Positions 575-55,000 of a stretch of 64,000 nucleotides of DNA are shown here, piece by piece. How positions within the stretch are numbered: position 1 is the stretch's first letter; every line of letters begins with the position of its first letter. Where the stretch lies: the NCBI GenBank assembly GCA_031763025.1, contig JASSKH010000016.1:2418001-2482000 (forward strand), given 5' to 3'. The position numbers were made by a program, and so were the translations under genes. The DNA is from Macrocystis pyrifera (Eukaryota > Sar > Phaeophyceae > Laminariales > Laminariaceae). The notes beneath the pieces are model-generated. The model did no database searches and was not told where the DNA came from. It saw nothing but the letters and a program-made list of their open reading frames with translations.

Positions 575-1030
575 ATCCTCGGCATAGATCGATCGACACA
601 ACCAACGACACCGTCATAAAATCTGAACGGAATGCGCTGATTAAGGTCTCCGACCCAGCCTAGTGTCAGAGTGCTCTCACCTCGGTCGATGATACGTGGC
701 GTGGGCTGACCAGGCGTCTGAATAAAATACATTTTGGCGCCGGTCTGTAGAAGACAGACAAAAATAAATCTCGACCCCTCTCCGATGGCAAAAAAATTAC
801 CATTTTTCAGGTTTGACATCGATCGACAAACCCAACGATTTTACGTTACGAACACTCAATGAAGCGCGCTGGTTAGAGGCTCCGACCCACACTTGTATCA
901 CAGTTCTCACACCTCGATCGGTGATATGTGGCGTGGGTGGGCCAGGCGTCTACTAACACCATATTTGGCAGCTGGTGTGTAGAAAACAGAAGTAAAAAAC
1001 TCTCGATTCCTCTCCGTTGTCACGAAATAG
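575..1030. repeat. Two-unit tandem repeat, period about 240 bp
   Basis: The block from about 580 to 800 is repeated from about 820 to 1030. Shared landmarks are ATCGATCGACA, a CTCCGACCCA box, a CTCACACCTCG-like box followed by GTGGCGTGGG, and GCCAGGCGTCT. A third weaker unit may follow. The short frames on both strands track the repeat and are not convincing genes. Confidence 0.6.
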
Positions 1031-1504
1031 AACTTTTAGAATGTTTTGACGAAGAGCATAGGACGCCGGGGCCAACCTCTCGCCTCCTAGACCACGGATT
1101 CCAGTTATACCTCCGAGGTCACAATTTTCACTCATTGGCCTTGCCCGGTACGAAACTCATGACATTGGTCGTGGGTGGATCATATGTCGAGATCGAAGGT
1201 CAATCGTCGCGTGACTGCGGGTGTGCGAGCTGCGAGCTGTGTCTTCTTCTAGTTTGTGTGCGCGTGATTTCACGTGGTTCCCGTGGTTCCCGTTAATACA
1301 GCGATTTTATTGGAAAATGGCTCCCGTCGTTCGCATTATTACAGTCATTTGATTGGAAGATAGCATACGTCGACCGCCCCGTATTATTTTAGACTTCCCA
1401 CCCCACGCGCATACGCAGAGGAAAAGCAGTGTAGGCAGGGGCGTCCGTCAAAAAGAAATATGTGACGGTTCATTTTTTATTTTCCTGGTGCCCTTGGTAT
1501 ATGT
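1031..1504. other. No gene seen
   Basis: The stretch contains only short frames. A roughly 42-bp imperfect direct repeat around 1300-1370 (shared core ATTGGAA with CCCGT nearby) is the only structure I see. Confidence 0.4.
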
Positions 1505-1740
1505 ACGATGGCCTATCTGATTGGTTCAAAAGTGTCCACAATCATCAAAAGCTATCATAATAGACAGGGTAGTAGGCGAAATCAGGTACAGCAGTATACC
1601 CTGGCCATTTCGACCCAAAATCAGCCACGATGTCAGTCTAGCGAATAATAGCAGGACTCCTGGCGTGCGGTTTGTACTTGTTTCTGGTATGTAACTGATT
1701 TTGTCCAAAATGTGGCCAGATGTACCTGATTTTGGCAAAA
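1505..1740 (+). repeat. Dispersed repeat family S, copy 1
   Basis: About 235 bp. It shares ordered landmarks with copies at 5263 and 59599: a start like GCCTCTCTGATTGG, a central box AGCAGGACTCC followed by TTTGTACTTGTTTCTGGTATGTAACTG-type sequence (positions 1650-1700), and an end rich in CTGATTTTGGC. It has no coding frame, no clear terminal inverted repeats, and no A or B box that I can see. It is a non-autonomous dispersed repeat of unknown class. Confidence 0.6.
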
Positions 1741-2094
1741 ACCCTAATTAAAAAGGTGACATGAACGGCGACTATAAACAGCAATAAGGCCTGTATTAAC
1801 GATATACAGGTATGTTTGTAAGATATACCGTCAATTTCTTTTTGGTTTGATTCAATTTTTGCAGCTGATTGGTCGAAACGTTAATCAACAAGCAGGCGTT
1901 TTGAATAATGACAAGCAAACGTAAATTCGACAGGAAGTCTTTCGGGACATATTTGCTCAAAATTATATGGTTCGAATGGGAGTTCTTAGCGGAAAAAGAG
2001 GTGATGCATGCTGAAGGAACGCAAAATGCTCTCTCGCAACTCAAAGAGAAGCGCCAGAGTCCACGAAAACCATCGCGGAGAGCACACCATGGAT

Positions 2095-2458
2095 CCTACG
2101 GATACAAAACGCAGGACAACAACAACAGCGGCAACATCATCTGCGATTGCTACCCGCGCAGGAAGGCCTCCAGGACCTGTGGTCGGTGCTGACAGTTGAA
2201 AGCCGACCGCAGCAGCAGCAGCAGCAGCCCATCTATGCTGCTGCCGCACCACCAGTAACAGCACCAGCACCCGCACCAGCACCACCAGCACCACCAGCAG
2301 CAACAACAGCAGCATGGGCGATTCTCCCTGCCCAACCGCGGGGTAGGTTTCCCCGCCATGCGGTTCTAGACCATTTGTCGGCGTCGTCGACCCTGCCTGT
2401 CATTCTCGATGAGACCGAAAGTACTATTTTTCACGAAATCATTTCCCAATCAAATTGA
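2095..2458 (+). repeat. CAG/CAC low-complexity block, possible exon
   Basis: From 2209 to 2229 there is a run of CAG/GCA triplets, followed to 2310 by CACCAG/GCACCA triplets. One plus-strand frame (2147-2458) reads as Gln6 then Pro/Ala-rich. Another starting at ATG 2092 is Thr-rich and ends with an AT-hook-like AGRPPGP. Either could be a 5' exon of a regulatory protein. No domain is recognisable, and the minus-strand Leu/Val-rich frame is a shadow of the same triplets. Confidence 0.3.
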
Positions 2459-2559
2459 ACTCATTTTTGCCGACGTATTCGATTGTCGTCTACTCCTACG
2501 GTATTTAATAAAGCTTCTCGTGAATACAGGCCTTGTTGTAAGGCCTGTATCATCACATT

Positions 2560-2705
2560 TTGCTTCGAATTCGACTTTTTTTCAAGCTTTCAAACAGCTT
2601 GCTTTGACTGACATATGTACCACGACTGAAAACAAAATACATCAACACACAAATGGCTTCGAACTTGGGAAGATGTGAGACTTCCAGCGACAATGTGTAC
2701 GGCGG
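2560..2705 (+). repeat. Dispersed repeat family P, partial copy
   Basis: Contains CAAACAGCTTG...TGACTGACATAT, then ACCACGACTGAAAAC, then AAATGGCTTCGAA and GACTTCCAGCGACAAT. The same order recurs at 5940-6045 and 6401-6510, and partly at 5480-5575. This copy lacks the upstream half of the unit seen in the later copies. Confidence 0.6.
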
Positions 2706-4340
2706 CAGCCGCCGTGAAACCGCCCGAGCAAGCGAAGGATAACAACCTGCCAGAAAAAAAGCACGCTATTGGGCAGAGGATGCCCCGATCAATTACTAGG
2801 AAATCACCACGAAGAGGACACAGCGCGCAGCGATGGAACACATACGCACGCACACACTAGCTTGGCAGCAGCAAAGGCTCGCATGAGCTCTCAAAACCCG
2901 AGCGGCCGGAGAGGGCGGCTCTAGAGCGGGTGCCTCTGGTACTAGTTCTATTATTCCTTGGTTTTTTTTTTCCCAGACGTACGCTCGCACGCAACTCTTA
3001 CACTAGAGCTATCGCACACAGCACTATAGAAAGGAGCAGCACGGACAGGGGATAGAGCAGCTCTGGACGAGCCCCCTCGCTCTTGTAGCTGGTACGGCAC
3101 ATAAATCAATTTTCCTCGTTTGTGAGGGCTATTATCGGCAAGCCACAGTTTACGGTATTCTGATACCCCTGTTACTACATCTGTATGTATAGGTACCTAC
3201 CTCTAGCGAGAAATGCAAGAAGACGCACGTACAGGAAATAAGTTATTGATACTACTCATAATAATGTGCCTCATTTGCTGGTGAATGGTTTTGTTTGCCC
3301 CTAGCGATCCTCTGGACGAGCCTTATTCGTAGGTGTCGTAACCTAATCCCCCTGGAACGTGCCTTCATATGTTTATTTCTATTGCTCAACAAGTTGATTG
3401 AACATCCCCAGTGCTCGTCGATTTTCACTGCAAGTCGCTTACTCACGCCCACGCGCTTTCCGCTCATCATCCATTGGTAGCGTTCGTACTGCTGCTTCTT
3501 CGGCGAGACTCAGTACTCGCAGCAATGAAATACCCTCAATATATATGCCCAGTATACTTCGAGTATGAAGTATACTTCAACCGTTTGTGCACCGTGTTGA
3601 CAAGTCTCAGGCCCAGCGTTCGGCACAAAACACACCCAGATAGTCCCACACGAGTGGGTTGGAGCAAACTACTTTCGCTGGAGACAACTTCAGCACTCAC
3701 AGCAGTCTGCCAGTATTTCGATATAATATTTTGCATGACTGCGAGTGCTCTCAGTATCTCGAAGTTCTGTACTGCGCATGTATTGCCTTTACCCCAAGTA
3801 TTTATGTCGTATTTCGATACTATGCTGCGGGTACATACTTTTAAGCAACCTGTATTCTCGGGGTTCGGTACTGTTCACACCCTCATTACTGTCAGTATTT
3901 GGGTCTTCTCAGTACTCGCAGTAGTTTTGCCGCCAGTACTCCAATAATACTCTCAGTACTCGGACTACGATTTGTTCTCGAGCAGTTACCTGTGAAACCT
4001 TGATATTATACCCTGAGCACCAAGAAACATTTATTTTTGGGGAACATACATATATTGTAGTACCAGTATGTATGTATGTGCTGCACTTTCTATTACTCAG
4101 CCGGTCACAAAGTAATATGGCGCAACCTCGACCTCGCGCAACTTTTATGTACTTAAGAATTAATCGCCGCGAGTCAGCTGAATCAATATATCTCAACTTA
4201 CCGATACCCTATTATATATTATTGTAGTATAATGATCCCACACTAATTCCGCGAACAGCAGTATAACATAGTCTGTCCTCAAAAATATACTGTGTGTGTT
4301 CTTCACGTTAAAATGATGGGTGGGTGCAGGCTGTTCTTCA
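2706..4340. other. Gene-poor stretch with AGTACT-rich block
   Basis: No recognisable gene. From about 3500 to 3990 the motif CAGTACTCGCAG and variants such as CAGTATCTCG and CAGTATTTCG recur about ten times, and a palindromic run of GTATACTTCGAGTATGAAGTAT type lies near 3550. The 178-residue plus frame at 3411-3947 simply reads through this repeat. I call it a degenerate minisatellite. Confidence 0.4.
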
Positions 4341-4344
4341 CGTT

Positions 4345-4610
4345 AAAATGGGGCTTATCCCTTGTCTGTCAAGGGAAACCTGCTGCTGTGTAGCTTGGAT
4401 CTCTCTGTATCTGCTTGCTTGATACATTCGAAAAGACTACCAGGTATGTGCTAATAGTGACGTGCCAGGGTGTCTGCTTAGTGAAAGGACCACGTGCGTT
4501 CCTAAACAATCCACTTTTGCTAAATTGAACATTGTCAACATGAGCCAGAACTAGAAACGGGTGAATTAGCACGTATTACTGTTTCGAATTTTGCATGATA
4601 TGGAACTTTT
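4345..4610 (+). repeat. Repeat family P, upstream-half copy
   Basis: Begins TTATCCCTTG, then CCTGCTGCTG, GTAGCTTGGATCTCTC, GTGCGTTCCTAAACAAT, TTTGCTAAATTGAAC. The same landmarks are in order at 5640-5870 and 6140-6395. It is non-coding and about 80 percent similar by eye. Confidence 0.55.
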
Positions 4611-14355: not shown

Positions 14356-17300
14356 GTGATGCATGCGGTGGACATGGTATCCGGTATGAAACGTGTTCTA
14401 GGCCAAAGATGCCCGATGACTGCAAAAATCGAACTAATGCCGTGCAGGCCGCTTGCCGTAAACAAAACTGCTACTGTAGCTTTAAGTGCGAATTGTGATG
14501 AACATACACTAGTGGCCGGTGCACAGTTTGTGGCGACGGCCCGTCAATAGCAAATCATGCTCTTGGCTGTTGTTTACATTCAATTTTAGAAGAACAAGTA
14601 TCAGCCGCTCCCGTTTACAGAGCACGCCATAACCAGCGCAGTGCGCCAATTACAAGTACGATGCGATATACACGGGTTTATGGCCCGCTTGTTCGTAAAC
14701 TCCAGGCGAGATTTACTAGAGGTTATATATCATTTCATTGGGCTCCCACACCTGGGAGAGCCAATAGTAGTGACCTCTTGAGCCACTATATATTAGTTAA
14801 GAAGCTCAGAAGTCAAAGGCAAAAAAAGTACTCAACCCTAGCACCTAAAATAGGATCCAGAGATCGCGAGGTCCACCAGGCAGCCGGTAGTAAACCTCTC
14901 TGTTTCCCGTACTACTGCCATATATACATAGATCGAAACAGTAGAGCGATATACCCGAGAATTATTTCTGTACAGCGTAGACCCTAAAGGCGTCCCAGCT
15001 ACATGAAGTATCCGACCATCCTCAACCCAACATGTTTCATTGAAAAAATAGATTCAAAACAAACGCCTGCGAATCAATCGAATATTCTGCATATCCCATG
15101 CTTCGTATTATCAAAATACTTCAACTATTCATTAAGTTCTAATTCCTAATGTGATACTTCGATCATGCACCGTTCTCTTAAACAATATCTTGGCACTTCA
15201 ATGATTCTGCGCACGCTCCTTCAGTCTGCAGTCAGTATGTCCTGTGCGGCCAAGGGTGTCCTTTCTAATAGCATCAACACACGTAGGCAACCATAGTAGA
15301 AGAGATATCAGCAAGATCAACAAATCGGTATGGCGAATCAAGTTCTCATTTTCAAAATACACCATGTCTTACCTAAAGTACCTATCCCGATCTTGTCCAA
15401 ACCGAAAATATATATTTCGGTCCAACCCGTCATCTTTGATCCGGTCTACGCCCGGCCACATCCCCTTCCAGGAGCGCCACCAGGCGCGTTGGATTCCCAA
15501 GACAGTTAATCTTTATCCATATGCACCAAAGTACCCTTCGACAACCGGGGCTAAGATCCATGATGATCCCAAGGAAATACATTTTCTACCATTCACGACA
15601 CTACCCGGAACGGACGATACATTCCATATCATTCAGACCACCCTCACCGTAAACGGTATCATCCACAAGTTTTTCGGGACGAATGAAACGTTTTTTACCA
15701 TTCCGAAATTCCACCCCAGTCGCACACGGTGCATCCCCCATCCACCACGGCGTATCCGCAAGGAGTACAACCCTATCTATGGTTTTCATTGTTGCAAACG
15801 ATGAACCTCAAAATAGTACGATCACAAACAATGCAAGTAGCCCGGACAGGAGTCTTCCATCGTAGGGAAAATCACCAAGTGTACGATTAGAGAATCAGAC
15901 GTCCCCCCTCGACCCGCGATGTGGCCGGAACCGCACATAATTCTGCTGACGATGTCACCACGTCTACTCCCTTCATGAACTAGCGCTGTCTCAGCTGCTA
16001 CAGTGCAGTTATGTGGAGTTCGCGCGGTGTCCTCGCCGGCGTGCTTCCCTTCGTGTTTGAAAGTACTGCAGACTGTTCACCAACCCCCGACGCCACGTTA
16101 TCTCTTCCACTTACCCCTCCAGCGGTAGTGCACGTGGTCATGCCACACGTCTTTCCCCTCACCGTCTCACGTGGACGAGTGCATATGGTCAGATGTCGAC
16201 CCTACGACACTTCGCTAGATGTGCAGACGTGTTCACTTTCGCTTCGCTAATTCCTCGATATCTACCACCCCAACAATCAACATTCACGTGCTGTGCTCAC
16301 GGCATGTAAATGTGACTCGACTTCAACCCGCCCCTGTCGCCACACACGGTGGGGGTATCTATAGCTATCCGCCGTAGGGAACTTTAAGCCACTTCTCTGA
16401 GTCAATAGCGTACATTTCCAAACGACACTGTATTCACCATCTCCGCCACTAATATGCTCGTAGCGGAATGCTTATGGTTACGCCACAAGATTGCCCCATA
16501 GCAATTTCCGAGTTCCCAAGGATTAAGCTTGCTCCTTGGAGTTATCGCTGGTGCTGTACACCCCCACCCACCCCGTTGAACACGCCATGGTTTCTAGGTT
16601 CAAAGTCCCAGCGTATGTGCACGTACGTTGCTGTTGCTCACGGTTGTACTACCACCGAGGGGGGTTTAGTTGATACTGCTGTACAGCAGACGCTGCGCCT
16701 AGAAAACGACGTCGTCTCCACAACATCGTCAGCAGGATAGTTTGCTCCCGTGGATACGGCCTTTCCATCCATCACCTGGGCCTTGACCTCGCCATGTTGT
16801 ATATTACAGTAGTATTTACCAGTACACCATAATAACCTGTCGTTATGTCTCCGGCGTGCAAGCTTGAAGCGAACGAACATAACTCTACAAGGCGAGCTCA
16901 CGACCCAACTTGGTGATTACAAAAATTATAGCTTGGCCCAATAGCCTTGAGTCATGTGACTGTGGAGATATCTTCAGGTCGCAACAGCCATGTAATCTGC
17001 TGTCTATCGTACATTCATTTTGTCGCTCCCTGGCCCACAAGGAACTTGCGTCTGTCAGCCTCACCGCCAACGCACGCGTATCTTTGTCTGTGCCGATAAA
17101 TACCCACCGTCAAGACCACCGTGCGTGCCGGAGGGCAGCAGACATGAGGGCACACACTCCCTGCGCCCTGCTCTACCTTCAAATAAAAACGGCGGTAGTG
17201 ATGCAGCCTCTGCCCCTGCTGCATCAACGGTGGTTGGCTGCTGCCTTCCCCTCCTACGTCCTATGTGTTCGACGCTGCTCTTATTCAAAGGCGGCGCGAT

Positions 17301-31559: not shown

Positions 31560-31960
31560 GCATCTAAGGTAAGGAGGTATTTTTTGAGCTTCCGTCCGCA
31601 CATCGACGAAGTCCTGCACGTTTACCCTTTTGGCCAGACACAGATTCCGCTGTAAGCTTCCATCGTCCTACCACACAACCTCACCTTTAACTTAGGCTAC
31701 AGAGAGTGCTGCCATTTCCTCGTCCTATGGCTATACGTGGCCAACGCTGCTTACACCCTGCGGTGAATATCCATACTACGTCTCTCTGTTTGTCTGCACG
31801 CTTGACTGTGTCTGAACTGTTGTAACGGTTCACCGATTGAATTCAATCGTAGGTGCGCGCTGGACCGTGTCGATATTGCAACAATTCACGTACCTACGCC
31901 AGACATATCAATTAGCGCACTGTAGACATTATCGATGCCGCCATCATTCATTTCACACCT
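31560..31960. other. No gene seen
   Basis: Unstructured, with short frames only. Confidence 0.3.
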
Positions 31961-32004
31961 CGGATGATGTAACACTCGGAGAACACTTATCTACGTTATG
32001 GGGC

Positions 32005-32672
32005 CTAACGCAGGGACGTGGTAACGTACTAACACAGTGTTAGCACTAGAAGAGCGATCATGGTAACGCAGTAACACAGTGTTAACTGGAAACCCACGAA
32101 CGTGCACGAGCCTGAACGTTATGTTGCTGCTCGGTATCGTCCAGCTCTGGTACAGTAACATTATGCTATGCCGTGATCAGTCCTTGAACTAACACCGCAA
32201 CACAGTGTTAGCTTATCACTCTAACATGCCCAGATCGATATCCGCATATTTACGAACACGAAAAACATAATGATATTGTCGACGCAGCGTTAGACGTAAC
32301 ACAATAACATTATGTTACCCTTAGGAGGAGTGTTATACATAACACCCTAACAAAACGTTACCATGTTCGCCAGCACTACTAACACATACCATTTTGTTAC
32401 AGATAACACACTAACGTAACATAAAGCAATTACCAGCACTACTAACACTACGTTATCTGGACCCCCCATCTGATTGCCTTAGGGTCGGATAACGTAACAC
32501 TTAACGTGCGTTAGATACGTTACAGTCTTAGCCGGCCCATACCTAACATTATGTTAGGATGTTAGCCTAAATGGGAAGTCTCTGTAACATTATGTTACGG
32601 TTTTGCCGTCAGTAAAGATCTGATGGTAACATTCCGTTACAGGGTTACCAGGTTTGTTATGGGGGGGGGGAA

Positions 32673-32717
<45 letters not shown>

Positions 32718-32840
32718 GTTATAAAAACCAATCCGGGTCTAACTTTATGTTACTGAGTTACCGTTGGGGCCGAAGTCGTTCTAACGTAATGTTACTACGT
32801 TACCCTTTGGATCTTCCCGAGATCTAACATGTGTTACCTG
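32005..32840. repeat. Cluster of TAAC...GTTA palindromes
   Basis: About a dozen short palindromes share arms TAAC and GTTA. Examples: CTAACACAGTGTTAG (32029-32043), TAACACAGTGTTA (32072-32084), TAACATTATGTTA (32305-32317), CCTAACATTATGTTAGG (32542-32558), GTAACATTATGTTAC (32584-32598), CTAACGTAATGTTAC (32781-32795) and TAACATGTGTTA (32825-32836). GTGTTATACATAACAC (32330-32345) has the arms inverted. Spacing is irregular, and only the palindromes and loose TAAC/GTTA half-sites are conserved. Half-sites continue thinly to about 33290. Confidence 0.8.
32661..32717 (+). repeat. Poly-G tract with 42 uninterrupted G
   Basis: Ten G, then AAGA, then G from 32675 to 32716. It could form G-quadruplex structures. 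The exact length may be unreliable because long homopolymers are prone to assembly error. Confidence 0.9.
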
Positions 32841-33299
32841 GGTCAGTGGTAAAGCGGGCGTGTGGGAGTAACATAGCGTAGCCGTGTTATCCAATTCCGC
32901 CGACATCCCAAGAGGGGATACCTACAAAAATATCCCCGGGGGGAGGATAGCATGTCATCTCCGGTAAAAAATGCCTCCATATTTCAAAACCCCAAAACAG
33001 GGGATATTTAGGATGGATCCCCGCAAAAAACGCTTCATTTTTTTGTGGAAACCCCGCCAGTACGTTATTCATCTATAACACATTACGTTGTCCATCTATA
33101 ACGTAATCTGCGCACTAGCACGTACGAGTTAACACGGCAGTAACATATTGTTTACTTTAGATTGGGGGTGTACGTTATCTACTAATTTGTGTCACTACAA
33201 ACATTGCATACGAGTTAACAACATTACCATAATGATATTAATAGTGTTTCATCGACCATATACGTCATCCGTTTGACGTATGTTATGTTGTTATGGTAG

Positions 33300-34080
33300 C
33301 AGAACTTCCGTAGTACCCTCACATCACGTCGCTCCAAACGGACTGCTGCTGCGGCTGATACAGTGACGGACGGTAAAGAACTTCACGATGAGTCACATTT
33401 CTACTTTAGCCTCCTCCTGTGCCAATTTCGTATACTTCGCATGATTCACCTTTACTGGCACTGCCCAAGCTCATGGTCTTGTTCCGAGTAAATATATCGT
33501 TTGAAGCGTAGTTACGTTTACGCCACGTGCTAAATCCGATCATGCGTTCTAAAAGGGCATTCATCCACACCCGCTATCAAACCTGCGTTAGTGGAAGTAG
33601 TCGTAAGAAGGTGTTGATAAACACCCACTCTGCACGGGAAAGGTCCACTGGTATTCGAATCACACCTCTCGATATTTTTGTTCAAGCGCCGGCCGCTACA
33701 ATTAAAGCACAAAAATATAAGGTGCCCTGTTAGGTATCGTAGATCACGCCAAATCTCGCCTTGTTCCATTCCGATCTCAGATTTATCGTATATCCTTCGA
33801 ATTTCATTGTGATCATCGTCTTCTGAGTCGCGTGGGAGAAGTTCCTCCCCTCCTACTAGATACCTATATCGGAGCTTCCTGCAATCTCCGCAGTATCTCG
33901 ACCACCCAAATGAACTGCCTCTCTCTCCCTACTGTGATACCAGCCGGGTTCCAAACTAGTACGGCCTACAGCTGTCTTGGATTACCACGCCTATGAATGA
34001 CACCGTACCATTCGATTCCTCCAACACCAAAGTAGCGTGATAAACTCCTTTCCAAATTGTTTCCTCTCCCAGCTGTTTCT
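33300..34080. other. No gene seen; may hold the 3' end of the minus-strand YR element
   Basis: The stretch lies just beyond the recombinase domain of the minus-strand fossil element. I looked for split terminal repeats matching sequence near 38.3-38.5 kb and saw none. Frames are short. Confidence 0.35.
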
Positions 34081-50029: not shown

Positions 50030-52020
50030 CCGAGATGGTGGTATGTGCTCGTACTGTGGTCCGTGGAGTCGAGGGGCGGGTGGCGAGGTGCCGGGTCCGG
50101 CGGTGTCCTTTCACTCACGGCTCTCCCTCGATTTGGTTTTGACGGGAGAGGGGAAAGGGGGGGGGATGGTCGTGCCACCCCACTCCCCCTCGATACTGGT
50201 ATATGCTCTTTGTACTGCTGTGTTCTCTCGTATGACGGTGGCGAGGAGGGTGTGATCCTGGTCGGGGATGGTGGTGCCACCCCACTCCCCCTCGATACTG
50301 GTATATGCTCTTTGTACTGCTGTGTTCTCTCGTATGACGGTGGCGAGGAGGGTGTGATCCTGGTCGGGTTTGTGGTGCCCCTCACTCCCTCTCCTTACAG
50401 ATGTATTCTCTCGTTGGACGGTTGAGCGAAGGGTCTCCCTCGATACTGCGGCACTCTCCCGCTCGTACTGATACAGGATACATTTGCATTTCCCCGCTCG
50501 TACTGACTACAGTACGAGGCCGCGATTTGGCTCTGACGGGGAGGGGAGGGGAAGGTCCTGTTGTGGCCCCCCACCCCCCCTCGGTACTGCTGTATGCTCT
50601 TTGTGCTGCTGTATTCTCTCGTTGGACGGTGGCGAGGAGGGTGTGATCCTGGGTCGGGTATTATTGTACCCCCTCCCTCCCTGTCGATTCTGCTGTTTTC
50701 TCCCGCTGGACGGGGGAGTAGAGGGTATGGTCTGACGGGGTCTGGTACTGTTGGGTCCCCTCCTTCCCTCTTGATACTGCTGCATTCTCTCGCTTGGACG
50801 TTCAGAGAAGGGTATGGTTCTACGGGCTCTGGTACTGTTGTGCCCCCTCCCTCCCGCTTGATGCTGCTGGTTTTTCTCGTTCTGACGGGGGGGGGAGAGT
50901 ATGGGCCTACGGGGTCGGGTACTGTTGTGCCCCCTCCCTCCCTCTCGATATTGCTGTTTTCTCCCGCTTTGACGGGGGAGTAGAGGGTATGGTTCTACGG
51001 GCTCTGGTACTGTTGTGCCCCCTCCCTCTCTCTTGATACTGCAGCATTCTCCCGTTTTGACGTTGAAGTGGAGGGTATGGTCCGACTGGGTCTGGTGCTG
51101 TTGTGCCCTCTCCCGCCCGCTTGATGCTGCTGGATTTTCTCGTTCGGACTAGGGAGGAGAGGGTATGGTCCTACGGGATCTGGTACTATTGTGCCCCCTC
51201 CCTCCTTCTTGATACGGCTTTATTTCGCGTCTTCACCGTGTAGTGAAGGGGATGGTCCAACGGGGTCGGGTATGGTTGTGCCCCCTCCCTCCCTCTCGAT
51301 ACTGCTGTTTTCTCCCGCTTTGACGGGGGAGTAGAGGGTGTGGTCCTACGGGGTCTGGTACCGTTGTGCTCCCTCCCTCCCTCTTGATACTGCTGCATTA
51401 TCACGTTTCGATGTTAACGTAGAGGGTATGGTCCTACGGGGTCTGGTACTGTGGTACCCCCTCCCTCCCACTTGATGCGGCTGAGTTTTCTCGTTCTGAC
51501 GGGTGAGGGGAGAGTATGGTCCTACGGGGTCGGGGACTGTTGTGCCCCCTCCCTCCTTCTTGTTTCGGCTTTATTTCGCGTCGTGACTGTGGAGTGGAGG
51601 GTATGGTCCTACGGGGTCGGGTACTGTTCTGCCCCCTCCCTCCCTCTCGATACTGCTGTAGTCTCCCGCTTGGACGGGGGAGTATAGGGTATGACCCTAC
51701 GGGGTCTGGTACTGTTGTGCTCCCTGCCTCCCTCTGGATACTGTTGTAGTTTCCCGTTTTGCCGTTAACAGTGGAGGGTATGGTTTTACGGGGTCTGGTA
51801 CTGTTGTGCCCCCTGCCTCCCGCTGGATACTGCCGTATTTTCCCGTTTTGTCGTTAACAGTGGAGGGTATGGTTCTACGGGGTCGGGTACTGTTGTGCCC
51901 CCGCCCGCCGTCTTGATACGGTTTTATCTCACGTCTGGCCGGTGGAGGGGAGGGTATGGTCCTGCGGGGTCGGATACTGTTGTGCCCCCTCCCTCCCTCT
52001 CGATACTGCTGCTTTCACCC
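50030..52020 (+). repeat. Minisatellite, about 88-bp period, about 20 units, inside the YR element
   Basis: The unit has GGGTATGGTCCTACGGGGTC, GGTACTGTTGTGCCCCCTCC, CTCGATACTGCTG, TTTTCTCCCG and GACGGGGGAG boxes. Anchors at about 50813, 50900, 50986, 51076 and 51170 give a period of 84-94 bp. The first units (50175 and 50270) are near-identical with a ~98-bp period. The left flank ends in gag-like coding sequence and the right flank resumes gag-like sequence at about 52030, so the array sits inside the element. Frames across it are artefacts. Confidence 0.85.
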
Positions 52021-55000
52021 GCTTGGACGGGCGATTTTGGAGCGGACGCTCACCCAGGGGGAGTTTGTGCTCAGGAATTTTAACTGTCCCGCCGTGACTT
52101 TGGGGGTGTTCACGGATAAGTTCCCCAACTTGCACGGCCTTGCCAGGGCCCAGATCGACCAGCACTTGGAGGACGGGTGGGCTATCCAGAAGGCAGCGGG
52201 CATCGAGTCTACGGCTGGGAAGGCGCCCCCTACAGGCGCCACCGGGGGCGGGGTGCGTACGGCGCTTCTGCCCTCCACGGCCATTCGACGCTCGCGGGAT
52301 ATTCTGCACAGCGTGCACCGCCGGCCGGCTTCGCTCCGCTAGCGGCAGGGGTGGGGCGCGGGGGTGCGGCGGCCGCGCAATCTGTGGTGCTCCCGCTTCC
52401 CTTGGCAAGGGGGGAGACCGCGAGGAGCAAGAACGGGAAGGGCAGACAGGGCGCAGGCGGCGGCCGTGGTAGTGCCCCGCTCCAACCTCCGTCGAACCGT
52501 GCCCTGTCGGCCATCGCCAGGTTCAACTCCGTCGTGCACGATGAGCAGCAGCAGTCCCAACAGGTTCGGGGCGGTCCCACGTGCGACAAGTGCACCGATG
52601 CCGGAAGTAACCCCAATCACGACCACCGGGTCTGCGCATTCATCTGTTGCTCCCCTTGCAGGCGCTGGGGACATCGGGGATCCGCCTGCCCGTATTAATA
52701 TGGGTGTTAACGGCAGCCATACAATGGTCGCCTTTAACGTAGAGTAGCCCACGGCGAGGCCCTACACCGCGTGCGCCGCAGGAAAGTGTGGCGGGAGGGT
52801 GGGGATTGGGCGAATATTGACTGACGATCTCCGTTCGGTCCCTTAGTTGCCCCGGTGGCGAGACGGTCGATGTAGTTAGGGGCTGGTCTCCCCTTGTATG
52901 ACTTGTAGTTTCTGGCGTTTAGTTCCCTTGGACCCGGAAGTATAGTTTTCGGTGGCTGCCGGCGCATACCAGTCAGTCGGTCGCGACAGCGGTTTACTGC
53001 AGAGGCTCCATGGTATGGCGATTATTTTGCTTGGCTCGGCCGGGGACTTAGGCGAGGCCGACTGCTTGGTCTCGCCGCCAACCGTTTATGTCTGGCGTTT
53101 GTTCCGTTCGACTCACGAGTATAAGGGATCGAGGGCGGCGCACGTACGTTAGGAAGAGGCGGCCGTTATTTTGGCCGTAGACACTCCGTTGGCTGGTGGG
53201 GGATCCGCTTGACCTATCCTAACATGAAGATGTTCGCGCTCACGTGTGACGGCGCACCTTTGGGGGTCTCACATTAGCTCTCGATATGCTAACGCCACGG
53301 GTTTGGGTTTTTCATATATGTATATGGTTTTGTATTTGTATTTTGTTCATTTACTCTTTTTAGTTTATTTTGTTCGACAGCACTCAGACACCAACGCAAC
53401 TCGTTATCCATACTTTCTGTTACTGTATTAGAATCCATGTAGATACACACGGAGTTGCGATGCCGGTGTCTGTGCAATCGTCATGACTTCTCGACGACCC
53501 GCCTAGATACACAGCTTTGCTTCGACGCTTGCTCACAAATATTTACTTACTTTGTACCAAGGGGGGCAGAATTCCGCCCCTCGTTGCATCGATTACCTCA
53601 CCAACGTTGTCACGCGTGTCTTCGCGGGGCTACATATGGCGCGATACAGCATTCCGTATACGACGCGTGCTGGCTAAGATTCGCTTACTCCGTACCAGGG
53701 TGGCAGAGCTTGGCCTCTCGTTCATCCGATTACTTCTATTAAGGATACGCGCGCGTTCCGCGCGGTTTCCTTTGTGCACCATGTGATACTCCGTACATAT
53801 ATGGGTATCTTCACCTCCTTTCCCCCACGGCGCGCTGTAGGTGGTCGCCGACGGTTGGCTCCGTCGCCTTCATCGACGCCACGAACACGTGCGGCCCGTC
53901 CTTCTCCCCACGCCCCCCATGGATACCGACGAACGCGAGTGGGTGCGCACGGGAGCCCTGCCCGCCTCGGGAGTGTGGCCGTCCGTGGCGGACGTCACTC
54001 GTGACCCGTTGCGGGGTATCCTACGGCGTATGCCGTTTGATGCTCCGATATGGAATGCGGGGAGGAGATGGGAACCAATTCGTGCCGGGGTTTGTGCACC
54101 GGCATGTAGGCTTCTGGCACGAGATCATCCCCGGCGAGCACCCGCTTCAAGACACGCTGGTGGCGTACTTTCGCGACGGAGAGGTTTTCACGATCTTCTT
54201 CTCAGGGAATATCGGGGTCCGTCGAGCGCCTGCCCGTATGACGTCGCCCGTTTTCCCGGAGCGGTGTTCCACAACCGTATCCCGCCACGGTTCACCAGGT
54301 TTGTGGACGACGAGGTACGAGCCCTCGTGGATCCGGGGTGTGTTGTCAAATGGGCGGACGTCCAAGCCCCCGGGGGGCCACAGCGGCCCCGGTTGGTCAT
54401 GGCATTGTCCGTTCAGGAGACAAAACCGCGCCTCACTTACGACGCGAGACCATTGAATAAGCGGTACAAGATGGTCCATTGTTCGATGGATACGGTGGCT
54501 CGGGTGGCAACCGTCGCTTCGAAGCGTGGTTATATGACTTCGCTGGATGACGCATCTGCCTTTCACAATATCCTTTCGCGCCCCTCTGTTTGGCCGCTCT
54601 TTGGCTTCTCGTACGGTGGGATTTGATTGTTTCTGGTGCGTCTTGCCTTTTGGATTCAGTTGAAGTCCATGGTGCTACCATACTTTTAGCGAGGCAAACG
54701 CATCCTACCTTCGTTCCAAAGAGATCCCGGCGTTAGCGTACCTCGACGACTCGTGGTTGAATAATTTCCGCACCTCCCACGGGCAGACGGCGAGGGAGCA
54801 ATGGTGGGCAGCCGGGGAGGCCACACACGTGGCGATGCTGGTGTCGTTCCTGTGTGGTCAGTTCCTGTCGGCCAAGAAGTGCGACTTCCGACCGACTAGG
54901 CTAGAACAATATGTAGGGATGATATGTTGTGCGACTCGGACACCACCACCTTCCGGGTTCCACGAGATAAGCTAGATAAGCTGCAGCAGCTGCTCGAGCA

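Follow-up and report, generated by a model that had tools for sequence, protein, structure and literature searches.

The window, a 64-kb stretch of the giant kelp genome, carries at 31954..33367 part of a DNA transposon that is ~1.9 kb long, non-coding and interspersed through this genome in hundreds of copies, and the cluster of TAAC...GTTA palindromes described in an earlier note belongs to it. The locus is best read, with fair confidence, as a truncated copy of a non-autonomous cut-and-paste transposon bearing a helically phased array of putative transposase-binding sites. The copy ends without the last ~540 bp of the element, including the right terminal repeat, and its parts are given here with the sites that have decayed in the window but are whole in the family consensus.

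31954..33367, + strand: truncated transposon copy, consensus 1-1368 of 1911; match 89% aligned with gaps, 95.6% over aligned consensus letters
31954..31976, + strand: left terminal inverted repeat, 23 bp; 21 of 23 letters match the consensus
32030..32210, + strand: five sites 42 bp apart, at 32030, 32072, 32114, 32156 and 32198; the last three decayed here
32263..32399, + strand: four sites, at 32263, 32305, 32348 and 32387, in steps of 42, 43 and 39; 32263 and 32387 decayed here
32443..32513, no strand: two out-of-step sites, at 32443 (N5) and 32502 (N4); junction of two blocks
32544..32639, - strand: three sites, at 32544, 32585 and 32627, in steps of 41 and 42; third half-site downstream, composite motif reversed
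32650..32721, no strand: insertion of ~70 bp with runs of 10 and 42 G; absent from other copies examined and outside the array
32740..32836, - strand: three sites, at 32740, 32782 and 32825 (last N4), in steps of 42 and 43; the reversed block goes on

The palindromes far outnumber what chance would place here. Twelve TAACN3-5GTTA sites start between 32030 and 32825, in line with the dozen or so first reported, and the exact form TAACN5GTTA occurs 10 times in the 836 bp from 32005 to 32840; when that segment was shuffled 500 times with its dinucleotides preserved, the count was 0.07 on average and never above 2, so that the density is not the one expected from composition. The variants CACAGTG and CGTAATG are both present in the cluster, as had been stated. 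Across the whole kelp assembly TAACATWATGTTA is found at 2298 sites against 11 for the reversed-pattern control, and the palindrome clusters at all 24 loci that were fetched by the palindrome (L001-L024) align with the transposon. The rest of the window holds a single further exact TAACN5GTTA, at 16833, and, at 50606-52031, a minisatellite of ~88-bp units with higher-order periods of 263 and 351 bp. A DNA hairpin was set aside, the 13-mer folding weakly (-1.1 kcal/mol).

The element was delimited by comparing its copies. A search with 31900-33350 gave at least 87 matching pieces genome-wide (a lower bound, from 40 scored of 1349 candidates), the longer ones being 87-94% identical. The claim that the DNA between palindromes is not repeated therefore stands mostly within the locus and falls outside it, where the whole stretch recurs. 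Copies have a common left border at CACACCTCGG, beyond which their sequences differ, and the right end is the reverse complement of the left, which gives a 23-bp terminal inverted repeat, CACACCTCGGATAACGTAACACT, perfect in the consensus. A 20-mer of this repeat has 298 + 290 exact matches in the genome (588; control 0), or roughly 290 element equivalents, and longer exact left ends number 108 + 73 (181). The consensus, 1911 bp long, comes from 18 full-length copies that are each 97.0-98.4% identical to it, and its longest stop-to-stop frame is 70 codons. Among the 33 elements that have both ends, 16 are flanked by two identical 8-mers and 25 by 8-mers that differ in no more than one letter, while 8 of the 33 show no 8-bp target duplication; exact duplications of 6 and 7 bp occur once each, and none of 4, 5 or 9-11 bp was found in this set. 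Because shared flanks suggest that several copies arose by segmental duplication, the distinct octamers, 18 in number, form the sounder sample: they are symmetric, with A at position 2 in 15 of 18 and T at position 7 in all 18, and yield the target pattern nAAnnTTn. Sharply bordered terminal inverted repeats, a duplication of fixed 8-bp length and the lack of a transposase of its own characterize the element as a non-autonomous DNA (class II) transposon.

Two of the origins proposed earlier can be judged on these grounds. The subterminal site array of a large transposon was essentially right as to a transposon array; the element, however, measures only ~1.9 kb and is occupied by the array over most of its length. 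A palindromic sequence that is itself the mobile unit is unsupported, because transposition involves the element in its entirety, with its terminal repeats and 8-bp duplications, and the palindromes lie at the same places between copies. That the palindromes reflect an assembly artefact or mere chance has a negligible probability and is already refuted: only the G run is suspicious, and long G or C runs also lie near L006, L022 and L024, but the shuffle and reversed-pattern controls speak against this reading, as do the many independent insertions with target duplications.

Older or diverged relatives were also seen, for instance at L009, L020, L021 and L046. The one at L020 3048-5746 recurs at L023 3617-6343; it is a 2.7-kb diverged relative with few intact palindromes, and both have identical target duplications and flanks. 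Both L029 961-3421 and L033 945-3414 consist of a partial copy with a full copy directly behind it, the outer pair having a common target duplication, GACGTTTT; the two loci are separated by ~59 kb on C189 and give the impression of a single event that was later duplicated. A stretch of 12.5 kb (G000:C223:2528963-2541498) contains four left ends, all oriented alike, which suggests tandem duplication of an element-bearing segment. Viral contigs are without an exact match to the TIR 20-mer or to the composite motif described below. A name for the family was not found in the literature; it may be catalogued in Repbase or in supplementary files, which lay outside that search.

Allowing one half-site mismatch, the consensus contains 26 sites, 22 of them exact, with the following starts.

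17 (in the left end); 77, 119, 161, 203, 245, 328, 370, 413, 452, 508
609, 651, 693, 735, 777
1142, 1226, 1365, 1450, 1539, 1581, 1666, 1750, 1792, 1834

Alignment of 25 units on the core reveals a composite site of 21 bp, TAACAC-NN-TAACATAATGTTA, in which one inverted half-site accompanies two direct ones that lie 8 bp apart; the third half-site is perfect in 17 of the 25 units. Where the third half-site is perfect, the units share one orientation at 77-413 and 1450-1834 of the consensus and have the opposite one at 609-777. The 21-bp site and a poorly conserved spacer of ~21 bp together form a 42-bp repeat that runs in blocks over most of the element. Thirteen consensus site pairs are 41-43 bp apart (shuffle mean 0.01), and among pairs up to 300 bp apart 12 are separated by exactly 42 bp, 9 by 84 and 5 by 126. 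Genome-wide, TAACAYWRTGTTA pairs at 37-47 bp number 783 against 0 in the control, and the distance at the 50 pair places listed is exactly 42 bp in 42 cases and 44 or 45 bp in 8; since the pairs mostly represent one set of sites repeated from copy to copy, they show that the phase is kept, not that it arose repeatedly. With 10.5 bp per turn, 42 bp make four turns, two for the site and two for the spacer, which places the sites on the same face of the helix. The spacing in the window, which had been called irregular, is likewise ~42 bp between most starts once the decayed sites that are whole in the family consensus are counted; it is broken by a ~19-bp deletion after 32210, the G insertion and the block junctions. 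The copy said to have its arms inverted corresponds to a stretch that does exist, GTGTTATACATAACAC at about 32331-32346, but this consists of the facing half-sites of two adjoining units and is found in the family consensus too.

Outside the motif the 42-bp unit contains little information, at most 0.24 bits per position downstream and up to 0.42 upstream, and between-unit identity averages 0.275 in the spacer (0.250 expected from composition) against 0.725 in the motif. A plain tandem satellite is thereby ruled out as the whole answer, most spacers being near chance identity, and Tandem Repeats Finder reports only the G run within the cluster region. The earlier judgement that no satellite is decaying here holds for most spacers; the exceptions are two spacer pairs that are 76% and 86% identical, and segment duplicates in the right arm (consensus 1362-1848 versus 1139-1637, 68%; 1572-1804 versus 1441-1678, 72%). 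From the same data one could read the array as a by-product, in which a 42-bp tandem repeat and larger segments were duplicated within the element and then diverged, leaving the palindromes as a slow-changing remnant. The right-arm self-matches and the two similar spacer pairs fit such a history, as does the best self-match offset outside the half-sites, which is again 42 bp (0.302, mean 0.25). With most spacers near chance and the 21-bp motif at 0.725, however, this account needs a constraint on the motif, and for the length held at 42 bp it needs constraint or luck; we therefore rate it as quite unlikely. The kept spacing may nevertheless be partly historical, given the segment duplication of part of the array.

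Constraint on the half-sites was assessed in young and old copies. The young copies conserve their core and their spacer to the same degree (0.977 and 0.975), as expected after a recent burst. Among 18 more diverged or partial loci, from each of which one perfect site was removed beforehand, half-sites are better kept than the spacer at p < 0.05 in six (L009, p 0.0012; L021, 0.0036; L002, 0.011; L011, 0.027; L014, 0.028; L013, 0.029), the p-values being uncorrected, some loci related (L013 and L014) and most picked for a perfect palindrome. In the other 12 of the 18 the half-sites are not significantly better kept, with equality in L005 and a slight reversal in L008, L012 and L019. The test thus lends modest support to constraint on the half-sites. 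A stronger argument for it is that the spacers have mostly lost their sequence yet kept their length, with the right-arm segment duplicates as a reservation.

We infer that the ligand of the sites is a transposase system and that the phasing helps it to bind cooperatively. A protein encoded elsewhere in the genome, either a transposase or a DNA-binding partner, would occupy the TAAC half-sites in the form of dimers or higher assemblies, and the phased array would load many such units cooperatively; the array would thereby concentrate transposase at the short ends and help their pairing, and the transposase supplied in trans would cut there. Alternatively, the palindromes may bind a host regulator, for instance of MYB type, with the transposon spreading a ready-made enhancer or insulator and needing only its terminal repeats for transposition. 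TAAC is a MYB half-site, the array extends over most of the element instead of being confined to its ends, and no transposase has been found as a possible ligand. All 24 clusters at L001-L024 align with the transposon, though, and no cluster was seen in use elsewhere in the genome, the listing covering the first 50 of the 2298 TAACATWATGTTA sites; we consider a host regulator unlikely. With transposase-binding sites as the preferred reading, the cluster is explained without a host regulatory element.

Compared with known systems, the element resembles several in part. Like MITEs it has terminal repeats, target duplications and hundreds of copies but no transposase; at ~1.9 kb it is long for a MITE, and unlike MITEs it consists mostly of phased binding-like sites. 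CACTA/EnSpm elements carry subterminal repeat arrays, a soybean CACTA paper reportedly speaking of 'subterminal repeats', and the CAC..GTG ends of the kelp element are similar to theirs; their target duplications are 2-4 bp long, however, versus 8 bp here. The hAT terminal consensus is CARNG, which the CACAC ends do not fit. In the hAT element Hermes, a quasi-palindrome in the subterminal repeats binds BED domains cooperatively, and a shift of one base relative to the end already impairs cleavage (PMC10368747). Hermes, whose repeats are imperfect, is similar to the kelp element in its 8-bp target duplication, short terminal repeats and quasi-palindromic sites; it offers a precedent for phased quasi-palindromic subterminal sites with cooperative binding and is, by analogy, the nearest worked example for the proposed mechanism (PMC10368747). 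The kelp element differs in having many more sites, a 42-bp phase and the target nAAnnTTn; Hermes prefers nTnnnnAn (PMC10368747), and the target pattern argues against a Hermes-like hAT. KDZ is an appealing candidate: the target duplications of Zisupton are 8 bp long (PMC12730594), and KDZ elements make up 1.8% of the genome of the brown alga Ectocarpus (PMC12477816). Kyakuja shares the CA..TG ends but has 7-bp duplications and no TIR (PMC12730594, PMC12477816), unlike the kelp element with its TIR and 8 bp. Fungal EnSpm elements have 3-bp target duplications (PMC12730594).

The partner transposase was not found among hAT, MULE or CxC2 matches or in the scanned frames. For the hAT dimerisation domain, 150 of 317 candidates were scored; measured from 173 of the 181 exact left ends, the closest of these matches is 9875 bp away and outside the element, which leaves none within 9.8 kb. 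One hAT match, at C189:3149687, does have a TIR from the wider list nearby, at ~5.2 kb, but the surrounding 2 kb contain neither array nor TIR and we take it as a coincidence. The MULE domain gives 94 matches, the nearest 14.3 kb from a listed left end, and CxC2 five weak ones (E 0.19-0.85), none above the cut-off. KDZ PF18758 and P-type PF21787 have no match in the kelp genome, but none in the control genomes either. The domain scan covered 64 of the 166 listed frames, from eight loci, and returned retroelement domains (RVT_1, RNase H, rve, chromo), a histidine-kinase-type ATPase and one weak Rv2743c match. Three long copies were rejected as autonomous partners: L045, with 5.8 kb between its ends, has a 1245-codon open frame (626-4360) inside the transposon copy with endonuclease and reverse transcriptase domains, apparently an inserted non-LTR retrotransposon, whereas the extra DNA in L046 (5.4 kb) and L047 (3.9 kb) is without a transposase domain in the scanned frames.

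Known subterminal binding-site arrays are, to our knowledge, short and near the ends. The kelp family stands apart from them in a four-turn repeat held over long blocks while spacer identity is mostly lost, in an element with 588 exact TIR matches. As a tentative and rather speculative extension, the family might represent a brown-algal lineage, with an 8-bp nAAnnTTn target and CACAC ends, whose DNA is mostly a phased scaffold in which over 20 palindromic sites, the majority of them with a third half-site, follow one another in a four-turn repeat; its transposase would assemble along one face of the helix, so that end pairing would be governed by how long the array is and how it is phased, two terminal sites being insufficient by themselves. 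If the mechanism inferred above is true, the copies constitute a natural experiment on the helical-phase dependence of a transposase array, and the motif becomes a handle for finding the partner transposase in kelps.

The 42-G run reported amid the cluster is present, at 32675-32716, and is not part of the array. In each of the 25 other loci whose alignment includes both flanks of 32650-32721, the two flanks adjoin to within a few bases, which rules out the run as part of the palindrome feature, and five more (L013, L014, L016-L018) are without the insertion, their alignment resuming at 32749. The run is thus an insertion of ~70 bp in the window copy. Long G or C runs, the longest of 31-54 bases, were observed at window 32650-32721, L006 8259-9901, L022 6328-6451 and L024 551-699; their recurrence may reflect a G tract that moves or expands, or else an effect of the assembly.
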